Source of the DNA: Desulfobacula sp.
GTDB lineage: Bacteria > Desulfobacterota > Desulfobacteria > Desulfobacterales > Desulfobacteraceae
Direction of reading: 5' to 3'
DNA: 62,116 nt
Assembly: GCA_013792075.1 (NCBI GenBank)
Contig: VMSR01000107.1
Coordinates: forward strand, 1 to 62,116
Positions 15,355 through 29,152 of this stretch are shown here, in pieces (positions within the stretch are counted from its first letter, which is position 1; each line of letters begins with the position of its first letter). The notes beneath the pieces were generated by a model that saw only the letters and a program-made list of their open reading frames with translations, did no database searches and had not been told where the DNA came from. A program made the position numbers and the translations under genes.

Positions 15355-17814
15355 TTATTTTTCCAAAGCTTTCTTCACGGCAAACCCCAGGGTTTCAAAT
15401 GTATATGGTTTTTTGATATAATCCCCGGCACCCAGTTTGCGGGCGGCTTTCACACGGGATGTCTCTGAAAAACCGCTGGTAATAAGCGCCTTTTGCCCTG
15501 GATGGTAGGTGAGGATTTGTCTGTATGTTTCGCACCCGTCAATCCCCGGATCCATTATCATGTCGAGAATCAAAAGATCTGCAGACCCTGTTTTCATATA
15601 TTCAACTGCTTTTTCACCGCTTTCCACTGCCGTGACACAATACCCAAGTTTCCCTAAAATTTCAGATACAATATGCCGTTGCCCCGCCACATCATCCACC
15701 ACCAGTACAGACTCTTGGTTTCCCTGGTACGCTTCAGGGGGCAAGGCGATTTTGGGATCACAGAGTTCTCGCTGGGTTGTTGGAAAACAGAGGGTAAAAA
15801 CAGTGCCTTTATGGGGAATGCTGTGGACATCAATTTCCCCGCCATGATCCTTTACCGTACCCCAAACCACTGCCATGCCCAAACCGGTCCCGCTTTTTCC
15901 CATGACTTTTTTTGTATAAAACGGTTCATAGATCCGCTTTATATCATGGGATTCAATACCGGTTCCTGTATCTGAAATTTTCAGAACGGCAGATGTCTCT
16001 TCTTTTTTATCCCCAACGTTACTAGGGCATTGATTCTCCGTGGAGATGAGAATATTCCCGCCATCGGGCATTGCTTCTGCTGCATTGTTGATAAGGTTCA
16101 TGATCGTCTTGAACAAATGGACCGGGGACCCCAGAATATTGAGCAGGCCCGGGTCAAGTTGGGTTGTGAAACCGACATTGGGGTGAAATTTTTTCAGTCG
16201 TTTACATTCCGGAGAGTCCAGATAGGTTTTAACAATGGTATTTAAATTTGTGACATCCTTGATAATAAGCCCCCGCCTTGCCATGGTCAGCAAATCCTGT
16301 ACAATTGCAGCGGCTTTCTCTCCGGATTCCCGAATCTGGATAATCGGGTCCCTCAACGGGCTGTTCTCGGGAAGATCCATCAAAAGCAAATCAGGATAAG
16401 CGACCTGGGCACTCAACACATTGTTCAAATCATGGGCAACCCCCCCGGCCAGGGTACCGATGGCTTCCATTTTCTGTGCCTGTTGGAGTCTTCCCTCCAT
16501 CTTTTTTCTTTCACTGACCTCTTTTCGAAAGGCGGTATTGGTTTTTACCAAAAGATGTTTCTGCATTTCAACCCTGTCCAGTGCCCGTGAAAACCTGAAG
16601 GACAGAACCGAGGCCTGGGAAAAAATAAAGATGAAGATACCGATGGGAAGAAAAAAGCCGGTTTCAAGGATCTCATTGGCCTGAAGAATATCATAAATCA
16701 CGGACAAAAATAAAAACATAAACCCAATAGAAAGAGCGGTTATGCCGTCCCGCCTTTTTTTGTGCGCCTTATACAGAATAAAGATAAGGTAGGTGCAGGA
16801 CAGAAGCGTAAACGCCTGGTATGACAAAAGGGTATGGGTAAAAAACCGGGCGGGAAGCAGGATGACGCTTGAAGAAAAAACAAGGGCAAAGACCTGGACA
16901 GCCTGTAAACTCTTTTTGGGAAATTCCCTGGGAAAAAGCAAAAACATAAACATGCCGAACAAGGGCACCGCCAGGTAAAAGGTCACATATTCCAGTTTCA
17001 ACAGCAGGCCCCAGCTTATCTTTGGCAACAGGGTGTGCAGGTATCGTTCATTGACAACAAGGGATCTTAGGGTGATCACACAGCAGAAAAGGCCGAAATA
17101 CAAGGCGGGTTTAAACTTCTGACTGATGATGAACAAACCGAGATGGTAAAGCCCCATGATGAAAATACTGCCGATTAAAAAGGTATTTAAAAAAAAGGAC
17201 CGGGTCTGTTTTTCCTGAATCTGATCTATGCTGCCCAAATTAATCACAGACCAGGGGCCGCCTTTCCGATGGTGAAAATTGGATATGTGCAGCACCAGTT
17301 TTACCGGATTTTCCGAAAGGGGAAATTGGACGGTGGCGGGCTTAAATTCAGGAATCATGGTGTCCCGGGTTTTTCCGACAACGCCGTTTGAACTGATTTT
17401 TCTGCCGTCGGCATATAGGGTATAGGCCGAGGCCATATCCTTGATCTCAAGCGACAATTGCCCCTGGGGCCCATTATGAAAAATGGTGAGGGCAAAACTG
17501 GCATACCCCTCGGAGGGGTAGCGGCCTCCACTGACTTTCTGGTTGTTCCAGACCCCGGGAAAATCATAATATCCAGTGGGTTTCGGGGGGCTTTCCGAAT
17601 GAAGGGGTTGGGGGTTCAACAGAGACTGCCAGAAAAATTCCCATTGGCCATTTAAAGCGACAATGCCGTCTTTTTCAAAATTCCAGTTTCGAAGGTCCAG
17701 GATGCCTTTTTCGGCAAAAGGGCTTGATTTTTTCGTTCCAGGGCCCGCACAGCCTGAAAACAGAGCCATGCAAAACAGGAGGATCACTAGAATTTTCATT
17801 CGTGTATAAATCAT
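15355..17814 (-). CDS. lipoprotein-like 7TMR-DISM hybrid sensor histidine kinase
   Basis: 819 residues. The N-terminus is a lipoprotein-like signal with lipobox FSGCAG (Cys about 22); a second in-frame ATG five codons later is equally possible. An extracytoplasmic beta-rich sensory region follows (about 35-190, 7TMR-DISMED2-like, jelly-roll), then seven hydrophobic segments (about 208-410), a short coiled coil, a HisKA box with phospho-acceptor His (AGGVAHDLNN), HATPase motifs (NAAEAM, DTGTGI, GTGLGMAVV) and a C-terminal receiver with the phospho-Asp in LLILDMIMDPG. Such kinases often sense carbohydrates or small periplasmic ligands. No HPt or separate output regulator lies in the window. Promoter at 17878-17906. 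Confidence 0.87.
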   Translation of the reverse strand: MIYTRMKILVILLFCMALFSGCAGPGTKKSSPFAEKGILDLRNWNFEKDGIVALNGQWEFFWQSLLNPQPLHSESPPKPTGYYDFPGVWNNQKVSGGRYPSEGYASFALTIFHNGPQGQLSLEIKDMASAYTLYADGRKISSNGVVGKTRDTMIPEFKPATVQFPLSENPVKLVLHISNFHHRKGGPWSVINLGSIDQIQEKQTRSFFLNTFLIGSIFIMGLYHLGLFIISQKFKPALYFGLFCCVITLRSLVVNERYLHTLLPKISWGLLLKLEYVTFYLAVPLFGMFMFLLFPREFPKKSLQAVQVFALVFSSSVILLPARFFTHTLLSYQAFTLLSCTYLIFILYKAHKKRRDGITALSIGFMFLFLSVIYDILQANEILETGFFLPIGIFIFIFSQASVLSFRFSRALDRVEMQKHLLVKTNTAFRKEVSERKKMEGRLQQAQKMEAIGTLAGGVAHDLNNVLSAQVAYPDLLLMDLPENSPLRDPIIQIRESGEKAAAIVQDLLTMARRGLIIKDVTNLNTIVKTYLDSPECKRLKKFHPNVGFTTQLDPGLLNILGSPVHLFKTIMNLINNAAEAMPDGGNILISTENQCPSNVGDKKEETSAVLKISDTGTGIESHDIKRIYEPFYTKKVMGKSGTGLGMAVVWGTVKDHGGEIDVHSIPHKGTVFTLCFPTTQRELCDPKIALPPEAYQGNQESVLVVDDVAGQRHIVSEILGKLGYCVTAVESGEKAVEYMKTGSADLLILDMIMDPGIDGCETYRQILTYHPGQKALITSGFSETSRVKAARKLGAGDYIKKPYTFETLGFAVKKALEK

Positions 17815-17966: not shown

Positions 17967-18749
17967 CTATGGGTTGTTTCTTTCCAGCAGGGTGATGACC
18001 TCTACCAGCCGGGACACCAGATGGTCATGGTAAATTTTACCGCCATCACGACTTGCCTTGGAAGGTTCTCCTGTGGTGCCTTTGGATTTGAGCGTCAGGT
18101 GTTTCATCTCTTCCGGGCTGGATGGCAGATAGCAGAGGGTATCCTCTGTATAGGACGGATCCACGCTGTACAACTCACTTTTAGGATGGGGATTGTCAAT
18201 GGCCCGATCCATCTTCACCAGATCCGGATATCGGTACATCATGTGGGAGCCTTCTATCTCCTCTGCATGGCCCACCGGCCCCCAGCCGAGTCCTTGGGTG
18301 ATGGTCTTGGACATATAGGCCGGATCAAAGATCACCACTTTTGCCGCAAGCTCCCGTTTGGCCCGTTCACCCGCCATCTGCATCCAGGTAATGTTGACGA
18401 TGCGATGGCCATTGATCAATACAAATTTTTCAAACCCGTGATGGTGAAGGGAGGTGATGATATCAAATGCCATTTCCGCCAATATATCCGGACGGATGGT
18501 GATGGTGCCGGGCAATACCATGTGATGGGGACTCCATCCGAACCAGAGGGGAGGTGCAGCCAGAATCCCGGTTTTTTCAGCCGCATCCTGGGCCAGGGTC
18601 ATGGCCACCATGGTATCAGTACCACAGGGCAGGTGGGGCCCATGCTGTTCTGTGCTGCCAAAGGGAAGTAAAATGGTTTTTGAACCCTGATCCAGTTTTT
18701 CCCGCACTTCCTCCCAGGTTAAGTCCTGGAGCCATACGCTGTCTGTCAT
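17967..18749 (-). CDS. creatininase-family metal-dependent amidohydrolase
   Basis: 260 residues from the ATG at 18749 (GAGG five bases upstream); the start lies one base past the biotin carboxylase stop. The creatininase metal motif is clear: GSTEQHGPHLPCGTD (31-45), giving E34, H36 and D45, then NGH with H115. In creatininase the residue two after that His is a Glu ligand; here it is Ile117, and the family's common NGHGGN is NGHRIVN. E164/E166 in HAEEIEGS may fill the site. The family hydrolyses cyclic or linear amides (creatinine, formamide intermediates, peptide tails). It closes an operon with the biotin carrier and biotin carboxylase, pointing to an amide or lactam substrate. Actual substrate unknown. 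Confidence 0.83.
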   Translation of the reverse strand: MTDSVWLQDLTWEEVREKLDQGSKTILLPFGSTEQHGPHLPCGTDTMVAMTLAQDAAEKTGILAAPPLWFGWSPHHMVLPGTITIRPDILAEMAFDIITSLHHHGFEKFVLINGHRIVNITWMQMAGERAKRELAAKVVIFDPAYMSKTITQGLGWGPVGHAEEIEGSHMMYRYPDLVKMDRAIDNPHPKSELYSVDPSYTEDTLCYLPSSPEEMKHLTLKSKGTTGEPSKASRDGGKIYHDHLVSRLVEVITLLERNNP

Positions 18750-18750
18750 A

Positions 18751-20106
18751 TCATCCTCGCTTTGCTGTTTGTCCCATGGTATCCAGAAAATGGGTGTCAA
18801 TCTCCCCTTTCTGAAATTGTTCATTTTCAAATACCCGCCGATAAAACCCGATGGTGGTTTCGATCCCCGTGATTTCAAATTCCGCCAATGCCCTTTGCAT
18901 GCGCCTGATGGCAGACGGTCTGTCCTTGGCCCAGACAATCAGCTTTCCAATGAGGGAATCGTAAAACGGGGTGACCATGTAGTTATCATAAATATGGGTA
19001 TCCACTCGAACCCCCGGCCCGCCGGGGAAGATGACAGACGCAATCTGGCCGGGAGACGGCATGAAATTGTCATTGGGGTCCGAAGCATTGATCCGGCACT
19101 CCATGGACCACCCATTGAACCGGACATCCTCTTGTTTTATGGCTAAGGCCCGGCCTGCGGCCATCAAGATCTGCTGTTCCACGATATCAATACCGGTGAC
19201 AGCTTCTGTGACCGGATGTTCCACCTGGACCCGGGCATTGATTTCCATGAAATAAAAATTTTTATCTTTGTCCACCAGAAATTCCATGGTGCCTGCGTTG
19301 GTATAGTTGACCGCTTTTGCAATCCGGATGGCGGTTTCGCCCAATTTTCTGCGAAGCGTTTCATCCACAAAACAAGAGGGAGATTCTTCGATGAGCTTTT
19401 GGTATCTCATCTGGATGCTGCATTCTCTTTCCCCTAAATGGATATAATTGCCATGACTGTCCCCCAAAATCTGAATCTCGATGTGCCGGGGTTTTTCAAT
19501 ATATTTTTCAAGATATAAGTTGGGATTTCCAAAGGCCGCTCCGGCCTCACCTGCGGCAACGGCAAAGGCCGATGATAGTTCTTCGGGGGTGCGGGCGATT
19601 CGCATGCCCCGGCCGCCGCCCCCGCCGGCTGCCTTTAGGATCACCGGATACCCGACCCTGTCCGCAATACTGCAGGCCGCCTCCGGGGAGACGACAATAT
19701 CATCACTGCCCGGAATAACCGGGATGCCCATTTCAGTCAGGATCTTTCGGGCAGCAGACTTGTCACCGGCCATGGCAATGGTATGGGCAGATGGTCCGAT
19801 AAAGGTGATCCCCCCATCAAAACAGGCCTTTGCAAATTCGGCATTTTCCGAAAGAAACCCGTATCCCGGATGGATGGCATCGGCCCCTGTCTCTTTGGCC
19901 GCCCCAATGATGCACGCCATGTTCAAATAGCTTTTCCGGCTCAGGGCCGGGCCGATATTGACGGCATGATCTGCAAATTTCACATGGAGACTGTCCTTGT
20001 CTGCATCGGAAAAAACCGCAATCGTTTTGATGCCCATTTCCCTGCAGGCCCGGATAATTCTCAGGGCTATTTCTCCCCTGTTTGCTATTAATATCCTTTT
20101 AAACAT
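18751..20106 (-). CDS. accC: biotin carboxylase (AccC-type)
   Basis: 451 residues from the ATG at 20106 (GGAGG seven bases upstream), matching the roughly 449 of AccC. It has the N-terminal IANRGEIALRI, ATP-grasp Gly-rich loop GGGGGRGM (about 162-169), and catalytic-site stretch EINARVQVEHPVTE (about 285-298). It carboxylates biotin on a carrier using ATP and bicarbonate. AccA/AccD carboxyltransferase genes are absent here, while the divergent operon carries PxpB and PxpC, homologues of the urea-carboxylase carboxyltransferase region. I therefore think it serves an amide or lactam-modifying complex rather than fatty-acid synthesis, but a housekeeping role cannot be excluded. Confidence 0.9.
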   Translation of the reverse strand: MFKRILIANRGEIALRIIRACREMGIKTIAVFSDADKDSLHVKFADHAVNIGPALSRKSYLNMACIIGAAKETGADAIHPGYGFLSENAEFAKACFDGGITFIGPSAHTIAMAGDKSAARKILTEMGIPVIPGSDDIVVSPEAACSIADRVGYPVILKAAGGGGGRGMRIARTPEELSSAFAVAAGEAGAAFGNPNLYLEKYIEKPRHIEIQILGDSHGNYIHLGERECSIQMRYQKLIEESPSCFVDETLRRKLGETAIRIAKAVNYTNAGTMEFLVDKDKNFYFMEINARVQVEHPVTEAVTGIDIVEQQILMAAGRALAIKQEDVRFNGWSMECRINASDPNDNFMPSPGQIASVIFPGGPGVRVDTHIYDNYMVTPFYDSLIGKLIVWAKDRPSAIRRMQRALAEFEITGIETTIGFYRRVFENEQFQKGEIDTHFLDTMGQTAKRG

Positions 20107-20128
20107 CCGTTTCCCTCCGGGACCTTGT

Positions 20129-20380
20129 TTAATGAATTTCAATCTCTATCAATGCCTGATTCTTCATGACAGGGTCTTCGTTTTCCACCAGGAATCGCTT
20201 TACAATGCCGGGATGTTCACAGCGAAGTTCCGTAAAAATTTTCATGGATTCAATCATGCAAACAATATCGGATGGGGTGATGGCCTGACCCTCTTCCACC
20301 AAAGCGGCCTTCCCGGGTGCCGACGACCTGTAAAAAGTTCCCATGACCGGGGATGTGATGATATGGTTTTTTTCGTCCAT
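20129..20380 (-). CDS. minimal biotin carboxyl carrier protein
   Basis: 83 residues, just the biotinyl domain. It has the bacterial AccB thumb signature (SPVMGTFYR, 10-18) and the biotinylation loop ESMKI with the acceptor Lys47. Normal AccB adds 70 or more N-terminal residues including a flexible Ala/Pro linker; none is present. The residue after Lys is Ile rather than Met. It precedes the biotin carboxylase by 22 bp and is first in the minus arm of the divergent locus. It is the likely mobile carrier between AccC and a carboxyltransferase, proposed here to be PxpBC. Confidence 0.88.
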   Translation of the reverse strand: MDEKNHIITSPVMGTFYRSSAPGKAALVEEGQAITPSDIVCMIESMKIFTELRCEHPGIVKRFLVENEDPVMKNQALIEIEIH

Positions 20381-20457
20381 TGAAATTTCTCCTTTTTTTA
20401 TGCTAGTGTGGGTCTGGCCGGTTCAATTTTTTGGAAACGCAAGCTGAATTTTTCAAA

Positions 20458-20496
20458 ATATACTTGACATATATTTTGAATCTATGTCAAGTATAT
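20458..20496. promoter_or_regulatory. perfect inverted repeat, likely GntR operator with divergent promoters
   Basis: The left arm ATATACTTGACATA (20458-20471) and the right arm TATGTCAAGTATAT (20483-20496) are exact reverse complements separated by 11 bp. Each arm contains TTGACA, a consensus -35 box, one on each strand, so RNA polymerase and a dimeric regulator would compete. It sits between the biotin-carrier start and the GntR start, and is the natural candidate for autoregulation by the adjacent GntR/FCD protein. Confidence 0.72.
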
Positions 20497-20529
20497 TTTT
20501 GTCCCGGGAACACCACCAAAAAAAGGCAA

Positions 20530-21231
20530 ATGCAAGCTATGCGTCATCCGTCCATATCAAAAAAAATTCCCAAACAGCCCCTGGCTGTCATTGCCTATGA
20601 AACCATTGTCAGAAAAATTATCTGTCTGGAATACCAACCCAGCCAGCACCTGGAAGAGAATCAGCTGGTGGAAGCCCTGGGCATCGGAAGGACCCCCATA
20701 CGGGAAGCCCTTGTTCGCCTCCACGGAGAAAAAATGGTAGAGTCCCACCCCAAAAGAGGGGTAATTGTCCGGCCCATTACCCTGCAAAACACCAAGGCCA
20801 TGTTTGAAGGCATGAACATCATTGAAATCGGCCTGGTGGATATCGCCGTTCATAAGGAGTGTTCCAATTTTATCCAGCGTATGCGCGCCGCCAACCTGGA
20901 GGTCCAAAGGGCCATTACGGCAAACGACGTCTTCGAACTGGTGGAAGCAAACCATGAGTTCCATATGAATTTTGCACGGTGTTCCCAGAATGAATTTCTC
21001 TTCCGGGCGGCCCAGGATATCAGGACCGAGGCCAAACGCCTCTCCTATTTATCCTATGACAATATCATCGACCCCAAAAAACCGATCAAGGACCATTATG
21101 AGTCGGTGTTCCAGGAACACGAACTGATCATTGAAGCCCTGGACAAAAAAGAGGGGGACCGCTTAAAAGAACTGATAGAAGACCACATACGAACTTTCAG
21201 ACAGCGAATCATTGTTTTCATGACATCCTGA
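20530..21231 (+). CDS. GntR/FCD-family transcriptional regulator
   Basis: 233 residues from the ATG at 20530 (AAGG nearby); the longer frame runs back through the operator and is unlikely. The winged helix-turn-helix is at about 20-85 (LEENQLVEALGIGRTPIREAL, then HPKRGVIV), and the all-helical FCD ligand domain at about 95-225 has metal-ligand-style His/Asp residues (EANHEFHMNFA). FCD regulators bind carboxylic acids or similar metabolites, usually through a metal. Its position in front of a TRAP transporter and PxpABC makes it the probable local repressor responding to the transported compound. Confidence 0.87.
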   Translation: MQAMRHPSISKKIPKQPLAVIAYETIVRKIICLEYQPSQHLEENQLVEALGIGRTPIREALVRLHGEKMVESHPKRGVIVRPITLQNTKAMFEGMNIIEIGLVDIAVHKECSNFIQRMRAANLEVQRAITANDVFELVEANHEFHMNFARCSQNEFLFRAAQDIRTEAKRLSYLSYDNIIDPKKPIKDHYESVFQEHELIIEALDKKEGDRLKELIEDHIRTFRQRIIVFMTS

Positions 21232-21292
21232 ACAGATGTACCAGCGTGAAAACGCTTATAAGATAAACTTTTCACACAATAAGGAGAAAAAA

Positions 21293-22282
21293 ATGAAACG
21301 GGTATTAATGGGTTTAATGGGTTTGATCTTTTCTTTAGCTGTATTTTCCAATGCCATGGCACAAACCAAATGGGATCTGCACCTGAACTACCCTGCGGGC
21401 AATTTCCACTCCCAGGGGGCACAGGAGTTTGCTGACAAGGTGGCCAAAGCCACCAATGGAGAGTTGACCATTGTGCTGCACCCCGGGGCTTCCCTTGGAT
21501 TTAAAGGACCGGAATTGTTAAGGGCGGTTGCCGAAGGCCAGCTGGCAGTGGCCGAGATTCCAACGGGCATGGTTGAAGGAGATGCCCCGGTACTGGCCCT
21601 GACAGCCCAGCCCTTTATCTCCACCAACGCCTTTGAGCAGCGCCTTTTGTACCAGCTGGCAAAACCCGTGTATGCCAAACAATTGAAAAAATTCAACCAG
21701 ATGACCCTCTACACCTCCATCTGGCCTTTTTCCGGCATCTACACCCAGCGCCCGATTCAGTCTGAAGCCGATCTGAAGGGCCTGAAAATGAGGGTCTATG
21801 ACGGAACCGGCCTTGCCTTTGGAGAAGCCACGGGGATTGCGGCCAGAAAAATGCCCTTTTCAGAAGTGTACCCGGCCATGAAAGCAGGCCTCCTGGATTC
21901 CATGTACACCTCTTCTCCTTCGGGGGTTGATGCAAAGGCCTGGGAAATTTTAAAATATTTCACCCCCATCAATATTGTGGGCTCTGTGAACATGATCAAT
22001 GTCAACCAGGCTGCCTGGGACAAACTGGACACAAAAACCCAGGAAATCGTTCTTGAAATAGCCGCCCAGATGGAAGACGACATGTGGAACCTTGCCGGGG
22101 ACATGGACCGGAAAAGCCGGGCCACTCTCATGGAAAACAAGATGACCATTACCCCGGTGAACAAGGAATTCCGGGCCCAGCTCAATGCCGTAGGCGAACG
22201 CTTGAGAGCAGAATGGGCCACAAAGGCGGGAGCGGATGCCCAGGCGGTTCTGACCCAGTATTACCAGATCACGGGCCGTTAG
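21293..22282 (+). CDS. dctP: TRAP transporter substrate-binding protein DctP
   Basis: 329 residues from the ATG at 21293 with AAGGAG upstream. Signal peptide of about 23 residues ending in SNAMA before QTKWDL. The DctP fold is evident, including the SEADLKGLKMRVYDG region (about 145-160) where the conserved Arg binds a ligand carboxylate. It captures a probably carboxylated substrate in the periplasm for DctQM. Next to PxpABC this suggests a compound such as a lactam acid or oxoproline, by inference. Confidence 0.88.
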   Translation: MKRVLMGLMGLIFSLAVFSNAMAQTKWDLHLNYPAGNFHSQGAQEFADKVAKATNGELTIVLHPGASLGFKGPELLRAVAEGQLAVAEIPTGMVEGDAPVLALTAQPFISTNAFEQRLLYQLAKPVYAKQLKKFNQMTLYTSIWPFSGIYTQRPIQSEADLKGLKMRVYDGTGLAFGEATGIAARKMPFSEVYPAMKAGLLDSMYTSSPSGVDAKAWEILKYFTPINIVGSVNMINVNQAAWDKLDTKTQEIVLEIAAQMEDDMWNLAGDMDRKSRATLMENKMTITPVNKEFRAQLNAVGERLRAEWATKAGADAQAVLTQYYQITGR

Positions 22283-22322
22283 AAGCATTTGCTTGTTTTA
22301 ACTTTATCTTGAGTCAATCCCG

Positions 22323-22352
22323 TGGTAATGGGCCTCCAGGGGTCCATTACCA
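22323..22352 (+). promoter_or_regulatory. intercistronic stem-loop between dctP and dctQ
   Basis: A 9-bp perfect stem (TGGTAATGG with CCATTACCA) extended by about three weaker pairs, with no U-run after it. In transporter operons such hairpins commonly shield the 3' end of the binding-protein message, raising its level over the membrane subunits. Confidence 0.5.
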
Positions 22353-22370
22353 TACCCTTTGGTGATCTGA

Positions 22371-22874
22371 ATGAAAAAATTGATACGGCTGGCAGACAAT
22401 TTAAGCCAATTTGCAGGCAAAATTTCCGCTGTGATTTTAGGGCTGATGACACTTCTGATTCTGGTGGAAATTTTTATCTGGAATCTATTTGAAAAGACAA
22501 CATTGATCGCTGACGAGTACAGCGCATACGGCCTGGCGGCCATTATCTTTCTGGGGGCAGGATACTGCCTTAAGGAAAAAGCCCATATCCGAATCACACT
22601 GGTTCTGGGATTTTTACCTCCGAAAGCCGCCAGAATCATCACCTTTATGGCCACCCTGATCACCACGGCCTTCATGGGGTATCTCTGGTGGTACTTGTTT
22701 AAAATGGTGCAATCGGCCATATGCTATGGCTCAACTTCCGGCACCCTGACCCACACGCCCCTGTGGATACCCCAGACTGTCATGCTCATGGGGGCCGGTG
22801 TCTTTTTTGTTCAGCTGGTTGCCACCAGCATGAAAACCTTCCAGGCCATCTCTACCCATGAGGAGGTGGTATAA
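22371..22874 (+). CDS. dctQ: TRAP transporter small permease DctQ
   Basis: 167 residues with four hydrophobic segments (about 18-38, 53-70, 84-108, 132-155), the standard DctQ layout. It acts as membrane scaffold for DctM in the Na+-dependent TRAP transporter. Its stop overlaps the dctM start. Confidence 0.86.
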   Translation: MKKLIRLADNLSQFAGKISAVILGLMTLLILVEIFIWNLFEKTTLIADEYSAYGLAAIIFLGAGYCLKEKAHIRITLVLGFLPPKAARIITFMATLITTAFMGYLWWYLFKMVQSAICYGSTSGTLTHTPLWIPQTVMLMGAGVFFVQLVATSMKTFQAISTHEEVV

Positions 22875-24184
22875 TGGAAGAAAACCTTTTGATCATGACC
22901 TGCGTGGTGTTCGGCGTCCTTTTCCTGGCCCTGGCCGCAGGCGTCTGGGTGGGCTTTGCCTTATTTATCGTCGGGTTCATCGGCATGACGGTGTTCGGAA
23001 CCCTGCCCGCCGGCAGCAATATGGCCTCCTCTTTGTGGGCCACCATTGAAAAATGGGAATATGTGGCCCTGCCCCTGTTTATTCTCATGGGAGAAATTCT
23101 CTATCGGTCGGGAATTTCTGAAAAGCTGTTCAAGGCCCTGGTTCCCTGGCTCTATCGCCTGCCCGGGGGACTATTGCTCATGAACATTGTCTCCTGCACC
23201 CTGTTTGCAGCCGTATCCGGCTCCAGCGCCGCCACCACCGCCACCGTGGGCCGGATCACCCTGGCGGAATTTGAAAAACTGGGGTATGACAAAAGCCTTT
23301 CCATGGGCTCCCTTGCCGGGGCCGGCACCCTGGGGTTTTTAATCCCCCCTTCCCTGATCATGATCATCTATGCCATCCTGGCAGAGGTGTCCATCGGGAA
23401 AATGTTCATGGCCGGAATTTTACCCGGGCTGCTCCTTGCCGGAATTTATGCCTGCTACATTATTTACCGGGGCATCAGAAATCCGGAAATCGCCCCCCGG
23501 ACCCAGGACAGCTATTCCTGGGCAGACCGGATCATGGGGCTTAAGGATCTTGCCCCCACCTTTATGTTGATTCTCATGGTTCTGGGCAGTATCTACGGCG
23601 GATTTGCCACCCCCACAGAAGCTGCGGCCCTGGGGGTTTTCGGGGCCTTTGTCTTTGCAGCCCTCAACCGCCAGATGAACGGGAAAATTTTGTTTGAGTG
23701 TCTCATGGGGGCGGTCAAAACCAATGCCATGATCATGCTCATTGTTGTGGGGGCCGGGTTTTTATCCCGGGTCATGGGGTTTTTGGGAATTCCTGCGGCC
23801 ATTACCCAGGCAATTCTGGACCTGAACCTGTCGCCCTACATGCTCATGCTGCTGTTGGGAGGGGTGTATATTCTTCTGGGATGCCTGCTGGACGGATTTT
23901 CCATTGTGGTCATGACCCTGCCCATTGCCCTGCCCATGGTGACAGCAGCCGGATTTGATCCCATCTGGTTCGGCATCTATCTTATTTTAATGGTAGAGGT
24001 CAGCCAGATCACCCCGCCCGTGGGGTTTAACCTGTTTGTAATCCAGGGCCTGACCGGAGAGCCCATCCTGCAGATTGCCAGGTACGCCCTGCCATTCTTC
24101 TTTTTAATGTTATTGACAACCGTCATTCTGACCATTTTTCCGGAAATTGCCCTGTACCTGCCCAACCTCATGGCAACCCATTAG
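22874..24184 (+). CDS. dctM: TRAP transporter large permease DctM
   Basis: 436 residues, polytopic throughout, the normal DctM length. Family stretches include SGSSAATTATVGRITL (about 115-130) and GSLAGAGTLGFLIPPS (about 144-159), forming the substrate and Na+ path. It is followed 14 bp later by pxpA, so uptake and catabolism are on one transcript. Confidence 0.92.
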   Translation: MEENLLIMTCVVFGVLFLALAAGVWVGFALFIVGFIGMTVFGTLPAGSNMASSLWATIEKWEYVALPLFILMGEILYRSGISEKLFKALVPWLYRLPGGLLLMNIVSCTLFAAVSGSSAATTATVGRITLAEFEKLGYDKSLSMGSLAGAGTLGFLIPPSLIMIIYAILAEVSIGKMFMAGILPGLLLAGIYACYIIYRGIRNPEIAPRTQDSYSWADRIMGLKDLAPTFMLILMVLGSIYGGFATPTEAAALGVFGAFVFAALNRQMNGKILFECLMGAVKTNAMIMLIVVGAGFLSRVMGFLGIPAAITQAILDLNLSPYMLMLLLGGVYILLGCLLDGFSIVVMTLPIALPMVTAAGFDPIWFGIYLILMVEVSQITPPVGFNLFVIQGLTGEPILQIARYALPFFFLMLLTTVILTIFPEIALYLPNLMATH

Positions 24185-24198
24185 ACAGGAGAAAACCT

Positions 24199-24972
24199 AT
24201 GAATTTTATTGATTTAAACTGCGACATGGGCGAAAGCTTCGGCGCCTGGCCCATGGGCATGGACGAAAAGGTCATGGACCATATATCTTCTGCCAACATT
24301 GCCTGCGGCTGGCATGCAGGTGATCCTTCGGTAATGGAAAAAACCGTGAGGCTTGCCGTTGAAAACCGGGTGGGTATCGGTGCCCACCCGGGGTATCCGG
24401 ATCTTCTGGGGTTTGGCCGCAGAAACATGGCCTGTACACCAGAGGAGGTCCGGCAATACATCCTTTACCAGGTCGGGGCCCTTGGCGCCTTCTGCAGGGT
24501 TCACAAAACCCGACTCCAGCATGTAAAACCCCACGGGGCCCTTTATCTTGAGGCCGTTGAAAATGAAGCGACCGCCCGGGCCATTGCCATGGCCATCATG
24601 GACCTTGATCCGAGCCTCTATTTTGTTGCACTGGCAGGCAAAAAAGGGGAAACCATGCGGCGCATGGGAGAGGAAGTGGGGCTGAAGGTGGTGTATGAAG
24701 CCTTTCCCGACCGGGCCTATACCCCGGAGGGAACCCTTGTGTCCAGAAAACTGCCGGGAGCCGTCATCTCCGACCCAGGTACAGTGGCCCAACGGGCCCT
24801 GGACATGGCCAGAGGATTTGTCACCGCCGTCGACGGCAGTACTATTGCGCTTTACGTCCAGACCCTTTGCGTCCACGGAGACAACCTGGAGGCTGTCAAT
24901 CTGGTCCGAACGATCAAACAAGTGCTGGGTGCAAATGATATTCAGGTAAGACCCATGGGAGAAAAAAGCTGA
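24199..24972 (+). CDS. pxpA: 5-oxoprolinase subunit A, LamB/YcsF family
   Basis: 257 residues. It has the family start IDLNCDMGESFGAW, then ANIACGWHAGDP (about 33-44) and GAHPGYPD (about 55-62) with metal-binding His and Asp, and KPHGALY near 112-118. PxpA with PxpBC hydrolyses 5-oxo-L-proline to glutamate at the expense of ATP in known cases. A good GGAG precedes the ATG. Here the neighbouring biotin carboxylase and carrier raise the possibility of another cyclic amide substrate. Confidence 0.9.
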   Translation: MNFIDLNCDMGESFGAWPMGMDEKVMDHISSANIACGWHAGDPSVMEKTVRLAVENRVGIGAHPGYPDLLGFGRRNMACTPEEVRQYILYQVGALGAFCRVHKTRLQHVKPHGALYLEAVENEATARAIAMAIMDLDPSLYFVALAGKKGETMRRMGEEVGLKVVYEAFPDRAYTPEGTLVSRKLPGAVISDPGTVAQRALDMARGFVTAVDGSTIALYVQTLCVHGDNLEAVNLVRTIKQVLGANDIQVRPMGEKS

Positions 24973-25685
24973 TGATGGCAAGCGGACTATTTGAAAAAGC
25001 CGTATACCGTCTGGCAGGAGACACTGGGTTTCTGGTTGAATTCGGAGAGGGCATTGACCCGACGATCAATGCCAGGGTCAGGGCCATGGCCAAAGCTCTG
25101 GAAAACAAGAAGCCTTTGGGCGTGGGAGAAATTATTCCCACCTACAGGTCTATTCTGATTATCTATGATCCGGGAGAAACCTGTCCGGACGCCCTTTTTC
25201 CCGTGATTGAACGGCTTGAAACCAGCCTTAAAACCCTTAAGCTGGAACCTGCCAGACTAGTTGAAATTCCGGTCTGTTACGGTGGGGATTTCGGGCCGGA
25301 TATGGTAAATGTGCAAAAGGCCCATGGCCTGACATCGGATCAGGTGGTCCAAATCCATTCACATCCTGAGTATCTGATCTATATGGTGGGATTTACCCCG
25401 GGTTTTCCTTTTCTGGGCGGACTGGACAAACGATTGTTCACTCCGAGGCTTGAAACCCCCCGCATGCGCGTTCCCGAAGGATCGGTGGGCATCGCCAACA
25501 ACCAGACCGGCATGTACCCCATCGCAAGCCCCGGCGGATGGCAGCTCATCGGGAAAACTCCCTTAAAACTCTTTGCACCGGACCGCACCACTCCTTTTTT
25601 GTATAAGGCCGGAGATCGCATAAAATTTATTCCCATATCTGAACAACAGTTTTCACGGATTGCCCGGCAGGAGGAAGACAGATGA
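24972..25685 (+). CDS. pxpB: 5-oxoprolinase subunit B (KipI/AHS1 domain)
   Basis: 237 residues, one AHS1 (allophanate hydrolase subunit 1) domain. A family signature is GFTPGFPFLGGLD (about 138-150), followed by a TPRLETPRMRVPEGSVGIA stretch. Its start shares bases with the pxpA stop (TGATG), so the two are coupled. AHS1 with AHS2 makes the carboxyltransferase-like half of urea carboxylase and the PxpBC heteromer of 5-oxoprolinase. Confidence 0.9.
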   Translation: MMASGLFEKAVYRLAGDTGFLVEFGEGIDPTINARVRAMAKALENKKPLGVGEIIPTYRSILIIYDPGETCPDALFPVIERLETSLKTLKLEPARLVEIPVCYGGDFGPDMVNVQKAHGLTSDQVVQIHSHPEYLIYMVGFTPGFPFLGGLDKRLFTPRLETPRMRVPEGSVGIANNQTGMYPIASPGGWQLIGKTPLKLFAPDRTTPFLYKAGDRIKFIPISEQQFSRIARQEEDR

Positions 25686-26623
25686 CAGCATTAAAAATTT
25701 TTGCCCCGGGCGGCTTTACAACGGTTCAGGACAGGGGCAGATTCGGATTTCAGCAAATGGGAGTACCGGTTTCCGGCGCCCTTGACCTTTTTGCCTTTCA
25801 GGTGGGGAACCTGCTGGTGGGGAACCAGGACACCTGTGCCGGCCTTGAGATAACCGTCATGGGACCGAAAATTGAAATACTAAAAGAAATGGACATTGCC
25901 CTCACCGGTGCAAAAATGGCCATGACCCTGAATGATAAACCGGTTGAACAATGGACGTCCATCCGGGTCAGGCCCAAAGATATCCTGACCATCTCCATGG
26001 TTCAACAGGGGTGCAGAGCCTATCTTGCCGTCAGCGGCGGCATAAAGGTTGCCAAAGTCATGGGCAGTTATGCCACCTATGTGGGGGGAAAAATCGGCGG
26101 ATTCATGGGAAGACCCCTTCAGCAAGGGGATATCCTTGAAACCCATGGAGCCGTCTTGCTCAAAATCCCCCGGGCCCTGCCCCGGAAAGATATCCCAAAA
26201 TATCCGACCCATGCCCTTATCCGGGTGATTTGCGGCCCCCAGGACCATTATTTTGATATGGATGCCTCCCCCCTGCTGGGCACCCCCTATATGGTGACGA
26301 CAAAGGCGGACCGCATGGGCTACCGCTTACAGGGCAGGGCTGTTCCCATAAAAGAAAACATGCCCAAAAGCATTGTTTCGGAACCGGCCATGCCCGGCAG
26401 CATCCAGATCCCACCCGATGAACAGCCCATCATTCTATTGGTGGAACAGACCGTTGGCGGGTATGCCAAAATCGCCACCGTGATTTCCACGGACCTGCCC
26501 AGGGTGGCACAAACCACCCCCGGAGACATTGTTCAGTTTGAAAAAATTGATCTGGCATCCGCCCATCGTCTCCACAGGGAAGAAACACAAAAATTCAGAC
26601 GACTCAAAGCGTTTTTCGGATAA
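25682..26623 (+). CDS. pxpC: 5-oxoprolinase subunit C (KipA/AHS2 domain)
   Basis: 313 residues, one AHS2 domain, beginning with the diagnostic TTVQDRGRFGFQQMGVPVSGALD (in part, residues about 13-35) and ending after the QTTPGDIVQF element. It overlaps pxpB by 4 bp. It is the last gene of the gntR-dctPQM-pxpABC arm and is convergent with a hybrid kinase, whose stop is only a few bases away. Confidence 0.9.
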   Translation: MTALKIFAPGGFTTVQDRGRFGFQQMGVPVSGALDLFAFQVGNLLVGNQDTCAGLEITVMGPKIEILKEMDIALTGAKMAMTLNDKPVEQWTSIRVRPKDILTISMVQQGCRAYLAVSGGIKVAKVMGSYATYVGGKIGGFMGRPLQQGDILETHGAVLLKIPRALPRKDIPKYPTHALIRVICGPQDHYFDMDASPLLGTPYMVTTKADRMGYRLQGRAVPIKENMPKSIVSEPAMPGSIQIPPDEQPIILLVEQTVGGYAKIATVISTDLPRVAQTTPGDIVQFEKIDLASAHRLHREETQKFRRLKAFFG

Positions 26624-26626
26624 AAC

Positions 26627-29152
26627 TTAAGCATTGGATATGTATTCCTGGGTATCCCCTTTTTCTCCATCCAATACATTTCGAACCCTCTTTGCCAGGT
26701 CTTTTTTTGAAAAGGGTTTTTGGATGAAGTTCACGCCCTTGTCAAGAACACCGTGGTGGGCAATGGTATTGGCCGTGTATCCGGACATGAAGATGCACTT
26801 TAAGTCCGGGCGAACCGATTGCAGACACTTTTTTAGCTCAAGTCCGTTCATTTCAGGCATGATCACATCGGTGACCAGCAGATGAATTTTTCCTGCATAT
26901 TCCCCTGCCAGCCGGATGGCGTCTCGGGGTTTACCGGAGGTCAACACGGTGTAGCCCAATCCGGTCAGGATCTGTTGGGCAAGTTTGAGGATGGCAGCAT
27001 CATCCTCAACAATCAAAAGTGTTTCACCGCGACCCCGGACAATTTCTTCCGTGCTTTCCTTTCGGGGGGCAGCAGCCGTGCCTTCGTTCCGGGGCAGGTA
27101 GATCTTAATGGTGGTGCCCACCCCCTTTTCACTATAGACATTTATGAATCCGTTGTTCTGTTTAACAATGCCGTAAACCGTTGATAATCCAAGTCCTGTG
27201 CCCTTATCCGGTGTCTTTGTGGTAAAAAACGGTTCAAAAACAATATCCAGTATTTCCTTGTCCATACCGCAGCCATTGTCGCTCACGGCCAGGGTGACAA
27301 ACTCGCCCGGAACAAACCCATGGTGGTCTGAACAATAGGCGGCATCAAACACTGCCGTTTCTGTTTCAATGGTGATTTTACCCACGCCCGAGATGGCATC
27401 CCTTGCATTGACGCACAGATTTGCCAGAACCTGATCCAGCTGGGAGGGGTCCATTTTAACGGCCCACAGCCCTGCCTTGGGCAGCCAGGCAAGGGAAATA
27501 TCCTCGCCGATGAGGCGCTGGAGCATTTTGAGCATTATGGCCACATGCTTGTTCAGGTCAATCACCTTGGGGGCGATGGTCTGCTTGCGGGCAAAGGCCA
27601 ATAGTTGCCGGGTAATATCGGTTGCACGTTTTGCCGCCAGAAGAACTTCATCCAGGTCCGACCGCAGGGAAGATGCCGGGTCCACCTCGGCTGCCGCAAG
27701 CTCTGTAAAACCGATAATCACGCTGAGGGCATTGTTGTAGTCATGGGCCACCCCGCCCGCCAGGCGCCCGACGGATTCCATTCGCTGGGCCTGTGTCAAT
27801 GCAGCCTCCAGTTCCAGGCGTTTGGCCTTTGTTTTTTTGTCCTCGGTCAGGTCATGGGTGATGCTTAGGATCTCAATTACCTTGCCCTTGGTGTCCAGCA
27901 GGGGAATGCAGCTAATCTTAAGATAGCTGTTGGACCTGCCCTCTGAAAATTGGAGCTCTGTTTCCAGGGTCTGAAGGGTCCCGGTGTCCAGGGCCAGCCT
28001 AAGCGCCGGCAGATAGCGGGAATACACCTGGGGCGGCCAGATTTCCTCTTCCCGCCTGCCGATAAAATCGGATTCCGGCCGGCCCGTGAGCCGGACACAG
28101 GCCCCATTGATGTATCGAATTTTTAATTGGGTATCGTAAATGACAAACATATCCGGATGATTCTCAAACGCCCTTTCAAACCGCTCCCGACTTTCACGGA
28201 GGGCTGTTTCAATTTTTTTCCGGACGGTCACCTCTGTTTTAAGCCGTCTGTTCCAGAACAGAAAAAACAGCACCAACACCCCTGCAAGGCCGGCAGCCCC
28301 TAAAAACAACTGGACGCCATCTGCTGCACTTATCCCATGTTCATATCGAATGGCAAGCCACTTGTTTCGGATGGCGGCATGTTCCCCGGGCGTCATGGCA
28401 GCAAGGGTCTTGTTGATAATGCCGACCAGCTCCGGCCAGTCATTGCGGACGGCCATGGCCTGGTTGTGGTTGCCAAAGGGGGTCGGGGCTGCCACCTTTA
28501 TGTTCGTATACCCCCGGGTCTGCAGCAGATACGTGGTGGACAAAAGATTGCCGATATAGGCATCCGCAAGGCCAGTGGACAGATCTTTCACTCCTTGTTC
28601 GGTAAAATCTTTCGAATCGGCCGGCACAACCTTCAGACGGATACCGGGATACTCTTGTTGTAATTTCTGGTGGATGACATACCCTTCCTCCACAGACACA
28701 ATTTTTTGGTTCAAGTCATCCATTGAACCGACAAACTCCGAATCTGTCCGGGTAAAGATAACCCATGGCGAAAAAATATACTCATCGGTAAAGAGCATGT
28801 CCTTTTGCCGCTCCGGGGTAATTTTTGCGGTGGGAACCATGTCCACCACCTGATGCTGTTTTATATACTCAAGTGCTGCAGGCCAGGTCACTTCAGATTC
28901 ACCGACATATTTGAGTTGAATCTTGTTACGATCAGATATATGTGTCAGATAGTCTATGGCGATTCCCTTAATGTTTCCATCGGCAACCATAAATGGCGGC
29001 GCATGGCCGATGCGTACCCGGACAATGTGCTGTTCGTTGATCCAGGCCCTTTCTTCAGGGCTTAAATTTATTACTGAATCGCTTGCCCGGCAAGGACTTG
29101 TAAAAACAAGCCCCAAAATAAAAACGAAACGAATCATGGCGATAATTGTCAT
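26627..29152 (-). CDS. BvgS-like hybrid sensor histidine kinase with periplasmic binding domain
   Basis: 841 residues; a second ATG five codons in is possible. Signal sequence about 1-23, then a solute-binding-3 periplasmic domain (about 35-265, Venus flytrap), one membrane helix (about 275-297), a PAS domain (about 325-435), a HisKA box with [13 protein letters not shown], HATPase motifs ([21 protein letters not shown]) and a C-terminal receiver (phospho-Asp in [11 protein letters not shown]). It resembles one-flytrap BvgS relatives that sense amino acids or related acids. Position next to pxpC suggests, but does not show, that it monitors the same substrate class. No HPt domain. Confidence 0.88.

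Follow-up and report, generated by a model that had tools for sequence, protein, structure and literature searches.

The contig VMSR01000107.1 of Desulfobacula sp. (assembly GCA_013792075.1; 62,116 nucleotides, hereafter the window) contains, at positions 17,967 to 26,623, a divergent locus for a probable split 5-oxoprolinase that depends on biotin and is accompanied by an importer and a regulator. The window is an entire contig (C221; G, L and C numbers are our handles for genomes, loci and contigs) from a draft genome of 5.3 Mb with a completeness rating of 98.9%. All ten genes were identified from open reading frames (ORFs), Pfam, and NCBIfam, and they form two divergent arms flanking an inverted repeat (Table 1). 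One arm encodes a biotin carboxyl carrier protein (BCCP), a biotin carboxylase (BC), and a creatininase-family hydrolase; the other encodes a GntR regulator, the TRAP transporter DctPQM, and PxpA, PxpB, and PxpC. This inventory is the one given in a preliminary description of the same DNA. The gene set is far from a chance assembly: many related genomes have it too, together with this operator. The locus is a well-supported functional unit, for which a biotin-dependent 5-oxoprolinase is the likely activity.

The occurrence of the genes was analyzed in 98 related genomes with the window BC as query. A window-type BC (at least 66% identity) was present in 16 of them, and all other matches had 56% identity or less. 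The BCCP gene adjoined BC in 16 of 16; PxpC was found in 15, and in the 16th (G003) the contig ends inside the same locus. The pxp genes were on the BC contig within 20 kb in 13 genomes, and the contigs of the remaining three end in the gntR/TRAP arm. A PxpC match was also present in 23 of the 82 genomes without a window-type BC, six of them as frames of 1214–1226 aa resembling fused urea carboxylases, which are included in the total of 38 PxpC genomes. The co-occurrence of BC and PxpC gave a Fisher p of 1.0e-6 including the six fused frames and 4.0e-8 excluding them. A window-type creatininase homologue (at least 65% identity; next best 43%) occurred in 12 of the 98 genomes, all within the 16 with BC (Fisher p 2.2e-12). 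This survey, which the preliminary description had proposed, found that BC, BCCP, PxpC, and the creatininase homologue occur jointly.

The BCCP is a lone biotinyl domain of 83 aa with the motif ESMK[IV]FTE[LI] within the group. The biotinyl lysine is kept, and so are the BC motifs, which we take to be the site of the catalytic residues. The BC passes the AccC equivalog model TIGR00514, and the BCCP scores below the AccB-type model TIGR00531 (82.3 vs. 115.2). The first of these scores favors a quite improbable alternative, in which PxpABC is an ordinary biotin-free 5-oxoprolinase and BC and BCCP serve another carboxylase, acetyl-CoA carboxylase (ACC), from this locus; this alternative is also favored by the presence of PxpABC in genomes without a BC match and of other carboxyltransferase genes in the genome of the window. 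No AccA/AccD-type gene lies on the window contig, as the preliminary description had noted for the neighborhood; the genome has five Carboxyl_trans matches and three weak ACCA matches, all of them on different contigs. The draft assembly yielded no E. coli-type AccA, as PF03255 gave only weak cross-matches (best 33.4 bits over 122–212 of 310). A pyruvate carboxylase is encoded on C174, and a second carboxylase, with a 658-aa carboxyltransferase, BC, and BCCP, where contigs C56 and C263 end; we infer that these ends, with the BC split between them, belong together. The search for an acc set that needs the BC and BCCP of the window, suggested in the preliminary description, thus turned up no E. 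coli-type AccA and another acyl-CoA carboxylase with a BC and BCCP of its own. Housekeeping ACC was rejected as the main interpretation of BC and BCCP because of the lack of an E. coli-type AccA, the separate carboxyltransferase–BC–BCCP set, the confinement of this BC subfamily to this kind of locus among the 98 genomes, and the BC tree described below. BC and BCCP are unlikely to be housekeeping ACC subunits; the comparisons support a dedicated module that travels with PxpABC.

Thirty-seven of the 98 related genomes, many of them incomplete, had no BC at E 1e-60. Malonyl-CoA in the genome of the window and in the relatives that lack BC is perhaps made by transcarboxylation.

The same combination exists in other bacteria. 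BCCP, BC, and PxpA, PxpB, and PxpC were found together on annotated plasmids of Sinorhizobium, Rhizobium beringeri, R. etli, Paracoccus, P. aeruginosa, and Lactiplantibacillus plantarum; these six regions were hand-picked among 40 of 742 records, and all six were linked. The pxp genes were beside BC in 5 of 40 BC loci from PxpC genomes (Brevibacillus, two from Paraburkholderia, Burkholderia, and Helicobacter). Among the best 80 of 578 PxpC loci, many of them on short contigs, six had a BC, one of these a contig-end fragment; locus L043 (the same locus as L201) has BC. In the family of Pseudomonas G107, a plasmid PxpC query at E 1e-60 matched none of 39 genomes, and a plasmid BC query at 1e-150 matched one BC of 62–65% identity in each of the 39, presumably the housekeeping AccC; neither result bears on replication.

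A tree of 82 BCs placed the linked BCs of desulfobacteria in one clade (19 rows, 100/98). The proteobacterial linked BCs were nested in the BC clade of that phylum, taken here for housekeeping AccC, and the remaining linked BCs stood apart, some on long branches. The linked label changed six times, at least four of them forced, and a single clade for all 31 linked BCs was rejected (log-likelihood 243.8 lower, p-AU 4.8e-39). Rows were chosen as linked or as BCs of PxpC genomes, so that the tree shows non-monophyly and not the frequency of linkage. In a quick PxpC tree, too, linked rows stood at several positions, namely seven proteobacterial rows, L069 with L214 and L239, L154, and desulfobacterial rows mixed with unlinked ones. 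If PxpBC did not use carboxybiotin, the recruitment of different BCs to the same partner would be difficult to account for; this recruitment also argues against the biotin-free alternative.

Two observations concern the biotin proteins of other loci. The linked desulfobacterial BCs have as sisters (97/96) the BC–BCCP pairs at L240 (G133) and L186 (G065), which lie away from pxp genes in genomes with PxpC and may serve it in trans. The proteobacterial accBC–pxpABC loci contain another BCCP-like protein, about 150 aa long and lacking the biotinyl lysine motif, which the annotations inspected call hypothetical (Table 1).

A structural entry brings the two kinds of protein together. Chains V and W of PDB 9yx5 (released 2025-11-26), entitled “Structure of the long chain acyl-CoA carboxylase complex from Mycobacterium smegmatis with MSMEG_0435-MSMEG_0436 bound”, match the PxpC and PxpB of the window, and the same entry contains AccA3, a BC–BCCP protein. 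Such a union is a further point against a biotin-free PxpABC. The entry was compared by its title and chains, and its BC–BCCP protein differs from that of the window in being common to acyl-CoA carboxylases. Its title would also suit a carboxylase of BC, BCCP, and PxpBC whose product is used elsewhere, with no lactam hydrolysis; we consider this very improbable, as PxpA was in view at 70 of the best 80 of 578 PxpC loci, and many of the others are on short contigs. A literature search that was thin in subscription journals and preprints turned up nothing about the complex of 9yx5 or about any 5-oxoprolinase that depends on biotin.

The model of PxpC (pLDDT 90.9) resembled E. coli YbgK (Z 39.8, rmsd 1.4, 298 aligned residues) and the carboxyltransferase of the Kluyveromyces lactis urea amidolyase (5i8i_B; Z 38.9, rmsd 2.1, 310 aligned). 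Urea carboxylase transfers CO2 from biotin onto an amide nitrogen. We propose that DctPQM would import pyroglutamate (5-oxoproline) or a close lactam acid, and that BC would use ATP and bicarbonate to form carboxybiotin on BCCP. PxpB and PxpC, as the two halves of a carboxyltransferase of the urea carboxylase type, could then move CO2 from biotin to the lactam nitrogen (or oxygen). This carboxylation would weaken the ring amide and give an N-carboxy lactam that is easier to hydrolyze; PxpA would hydrolyze the ring, and N-carboxy-glutamate would then lose CO2 spontaneously. With one ATP spent, the overall conversion of lactam + ATP + H2O into glutamate + ADP + Pi would equal that known for 5-oxoprolinase. 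The creatininase-family protein may act at some step of the same pathway, and the GntR protein would control both arms through one operator.

Several results weigh against a biotin-dependent 5-oxoprolinase. BC was absent in 9 of 62 genomes searched, a set made up of 61 genomes with PxpC plus G003 from which most relatives with a linked BC were left out. Among these nine, a completeness rating of 100% applies to G021 (two contigs) and G088; G047, G064, and G095 have pxp contigs of less than 7 kb; and four are metagenome-assembled genomes (MAGs). Biotin is thus not required by every PxpABC, unless another donor serves. Independence of PxpABC from biotin, which the preliminary description had named as a refutation, is in part what G021 suggests for other PxpABC sets. 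Among the relatives, G001 and G028 have a close PxpABC and no window-type BC, and the same is seen in G004, G015, G047, and G095, where the contigs are cut nearby. The PxpC of the window scored 228.7 with the 5-oxoprolinase equivalog NF045499, far under the cut-off of 500. Lys1605 is the presumed general base of urea carboxylase in the available text of PMC5770610. Its column, placed by counting along the alignment, holds Arg in 107 of 108 PxpB rows, linked or not, including the window PxpB (three rows, L116, L201, and L208, repeat L051, L043, and L047), so that carboxyl transfer, if any, is not by the same base. Finally, phosphorylation by PxpBC was still assumed in a 2026 paper (PMC13274462, in the parts accessible).

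The sole Lys in this column belongs to L069 (G022:C74), a second, urea-carboxylase-like split set in the order PxpA-PxpB-PxpC-BCCP-BC, and G022 also has a window-type locus. The general-base column, the one compared, does not separate linked PxpB from PxpB of genomes without BC. Columns of this kind were not trusted in the desulfobacteria because the tree intermingles their linked and unlinked PxpC rows too strongly. Duplicates, fragments, and fusions (L066, L070, L072, L076, L077, L079, L082, L087, L101, L103, and L132) were left out of the PxpA, PxpB, and PxpC alignments, and L070 was set aside to serve as the urea carboxylase row of PxpB and PxpC. Rows L070, L071, L073, L074, L116, L201, and L208 were likewise omitted from the PxpC tree.

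A wider and more tentative proposal, which we hold to be possible, is that PxpBC is a carboxyltransferase and not a kinase. In most of its bacterial hosts, the widespread prokaryotic 5-oxoprolinase would then open its lactam with CO2 carried by biotin. BC and BCCP would be either encoded nearby or borrowed from acyl-CoA carboxylases, as 9yx5 hints, and genomes without BC would have lost or replaced the donor.

The nature of the substrate is suggested by the receptor. Among the best 60 of 90 matches to solved structures, the window DctP was closest to 2pfz (3.4e-49), 2pfy (7.2e-47), and 6wgm (2.2e-42); the others were at 2e-19 or weaker, a gap of about 23 orders of magnitude in E-value after 6wgm. 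We take 2PFY and 2PFZ to be the two DctP proteins of Bordetella pertussis solved in 2007. These two proteins hold pyroglutamate according to the consulted parts of the sources (PMC5812351, PMC12344293). The window DctP is therefore nearest, by sequence comparison, to the pyroglutamate-binding kind, and the imported cyclic amide of the preliminary description is narrowed in type. In G017, a peptide-type ABC transporter seems to stand in for TRAP, as read from the ORF starts.

It is also conceivable, although rather unlikely, that the same biotin machinery acts on another substrate, so that PxpBC carboxylates another lactam, a cyclic imide, or a ureide, and the creatininase homologue is a second hydrolase. 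The receptor argues against this, as do PxpA and PxpB, which pass the 5-oxoprolinase models NF003814 and TIGR00370. Another substrate would agree with the low PxpC equivalog score and with the creatininase homologue, which stays with the system though its position changes: it follows BC in 8 of 12 genomes, comes after pxpC in G066 and G091, and is oriented toward BC in G074 and G086. It also adjoins PxpABC with no BC in view at L100, L098 and L111 (short contigs), and L078 and L085 (contigs beginning nearby), and may thus be tied to the substrate and not to biotin. Among the best 80 of 578 PxpC loci, many of them on short contigs, it was present in seven. Its scores are under the NCBIfam cut-offs for creatininase (TIGR04448, 121.4 vs. 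235), IolN, and MftE, and its best solved relatives are creatininases (E 2.6e-23 or weaker). Another substrate is also favored by genomes that have both linked and unlinked PxpABC (Brevibacillus G126, Paraburkholderia G103, and Helicobacter G108) or linked PxpABC and unlinked PxpBC (Burkholderia G112), which suggests two substrates or two modes.

The single operator shared by the two arms, claimed in the preliminary description, was confirmed. Its arms (20455–20475 and 20479–20499) are 21 nt long and 95% complementary, and the 13-nt half-site (up to two mismatches) occurs twice in the window, both at the operator, with 0.28 expected. Each arm contains TTGACA, as seen by eye, which may place the operator across the two promoters' −35 boxes. 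The repeat could be scored between BCCP and gntR (or dctP) in 18 loci; in a 19th (L057), overlapping gene calls made the region uncuttable. Both 9-nt arms, CTTGACATA and TATGTCAAG, were exact in 14 of the 18, L204 and L045 had one or two changes, L055 a shortened form, and L202 a half-site. The exact pattern was present in 15 of the 98 related genomes, at a single place in each (two in G047), and the reversed control had none. Every such place, by its coordinates, is a BCCP or pxp locus of the window kind; in G028 the operator stands before pxpA at a locus without BC. As far as the pattern tells, the regulator has one target. The classical FadR-like operator TNGTNNNACNA was rejected, with five matches in the window against 8.6 expected and none at the locus.

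Niehaus 2017 reportedly deals with the prokaryotic 5-oxoprolinase PxpABC. It is the work cited for PxpABC in the available part of PMC13274462. The window system is like that enzyme in having pxpA, pxpB, and pxpC in one operon and a receptor apparently of the pyroglutamate type, and unlike it in having a BC and BCCP of its own at the shared operator, a creatininase-family neighbor, and a PxpC far under the equivalog cut-off. It shares with the K. lactis urea carboxylase (3VA7/5I8I) a BC, BCCP, and carboxyltransferase of the same kinds; in the window, however, the parts are separate proteins, Arg replaces the general-base Lys, and PxpA apparently takes the place of allophanate hydrolase. The M. 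smegmatis complex is similar in joining PxpC and PxpB homologues to a BC–BCCP protein.

In P. aeruginosa, we take PA0492, PA0495, and PA0496 to be PxpA, PxpB, and PxpC. The PA0493–PA0496 operon has been reported with PA0493 as a biotin-requiring protein and PA0494 as BC, its function being called unknown, and, in contrast to the window, the accessible passages describe PA0492–PA0496 without TRAP, GntR, or a creatininase homologue (PMC5521831, PMC6249292). The caprolactamase of Pseudomonas jessenii opens a lactam in an ATP-dependent way with involvement of bicarbonate, and a carboxylated lactim is among three mechanisms weighed in the part of PMC8453981 consulted; its proteins are unrelated to those of the window and use no biotin.

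Something like the combination of BCCP, BC, and PxpABC was noticed in SAR11 (PMC10308929, available text) and, in part, in P. aeruginosa (PMC6249292, available text). The combination is already known, spread over several phyla, and annotated gene by gene, and the view that the full set cannot be named found no support, since such clusters are visible in public annotation. The idea of a joint biotin-dependent machine is itself favored by the BC and BCCP that travel with PxpABC and by 9yx5. New here are the creatininase partner, a TRAP receptor apparently of the pyroglutamate type, and the one operator conserved among these loci. Should the linked systems prove to depend on carboxybiotin, the chemistry of a widespread enzyme would be a different one; for the use of pyroglutamate, both biotin and bicarbonate would become growth factors, and many genes called accB or accC would not be for lipid synthesis.

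Table 1. Features of the locus (window positions) and of the second BCCP-like protein in other loci
Feature	Position	Strand	Support
Creatininase-family amidohydrolase, unnamed subfamily, 260 aa from ATG 18749	17967..18749	-	PF02633, 212.9 bits, above cut-off
BC, AccC-like	18751..20106	-	PF00289/PF02786/PF02785; TIGR00514, 687.9 vs. 626.5; BC motifs kept
BCCP, single biotinyl domain, motif ESMKIFTEL	20129..20380	-	PF00364; motif
Shared operator, 21-nt inverted repeat, TTGACA per arm	20455..20499	.	Repeat scan; kept in relatives
GntR/FCD regulator, ATG 20530 by inspection	20530..21231	+	PF00392 and PF07729
TRAP solute receptor DctP, nearest 2PFZ/2PFY	21236..22282	+	PF03480; comparison with solved structures
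TRAP small permease DctQ	22371..22874	+	PF04290
TRAP large permease DctM	22874..24184	+	PF06808
PxpA (LamB/YcsF), presumed ring-opening hydrolase	24199..24972	+	PF03746; NF003814, 354.9 vs. 226
PxpB, predicted carboxyltransferase subdomains C–D	24972..25685	+	PF02682; TIGR00370, 224.7 vs. 145.55
PxpC, predicted carboxyltransferase subdomains A–B	25682..26623	+	PF02626; TIGR00724, 285.5, above 230.2; AlphaFold pLDDT 90.9
Second BCCP-like protein	L157:4824-5294; L153:4812-5297; L225 from 4456; L222 from 3859; L158:9462-9953		

The reading frame of BC is open from TTG 20142, and its start was trimmed by inspection to the ATG at 20106; that of the creatininase homologue, trimmed likewise, is immediately 3′ of the BC stop. 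No relatives were found in viral contigs. Among the best 80 of 578 confirmed loci, the nearest named ones are from Desulfobacula and Desulfobacteraceae MAGs. A weak match to a BC model (32 bits) lies in a 598-aa frame on the plus strand from 58605, perhaps another ATP-grasp protein. The locus lies between two minus-strand genes (15355–17814 and 26627–29152) that by eye resemble sensor histidine kinases with receiver domains.

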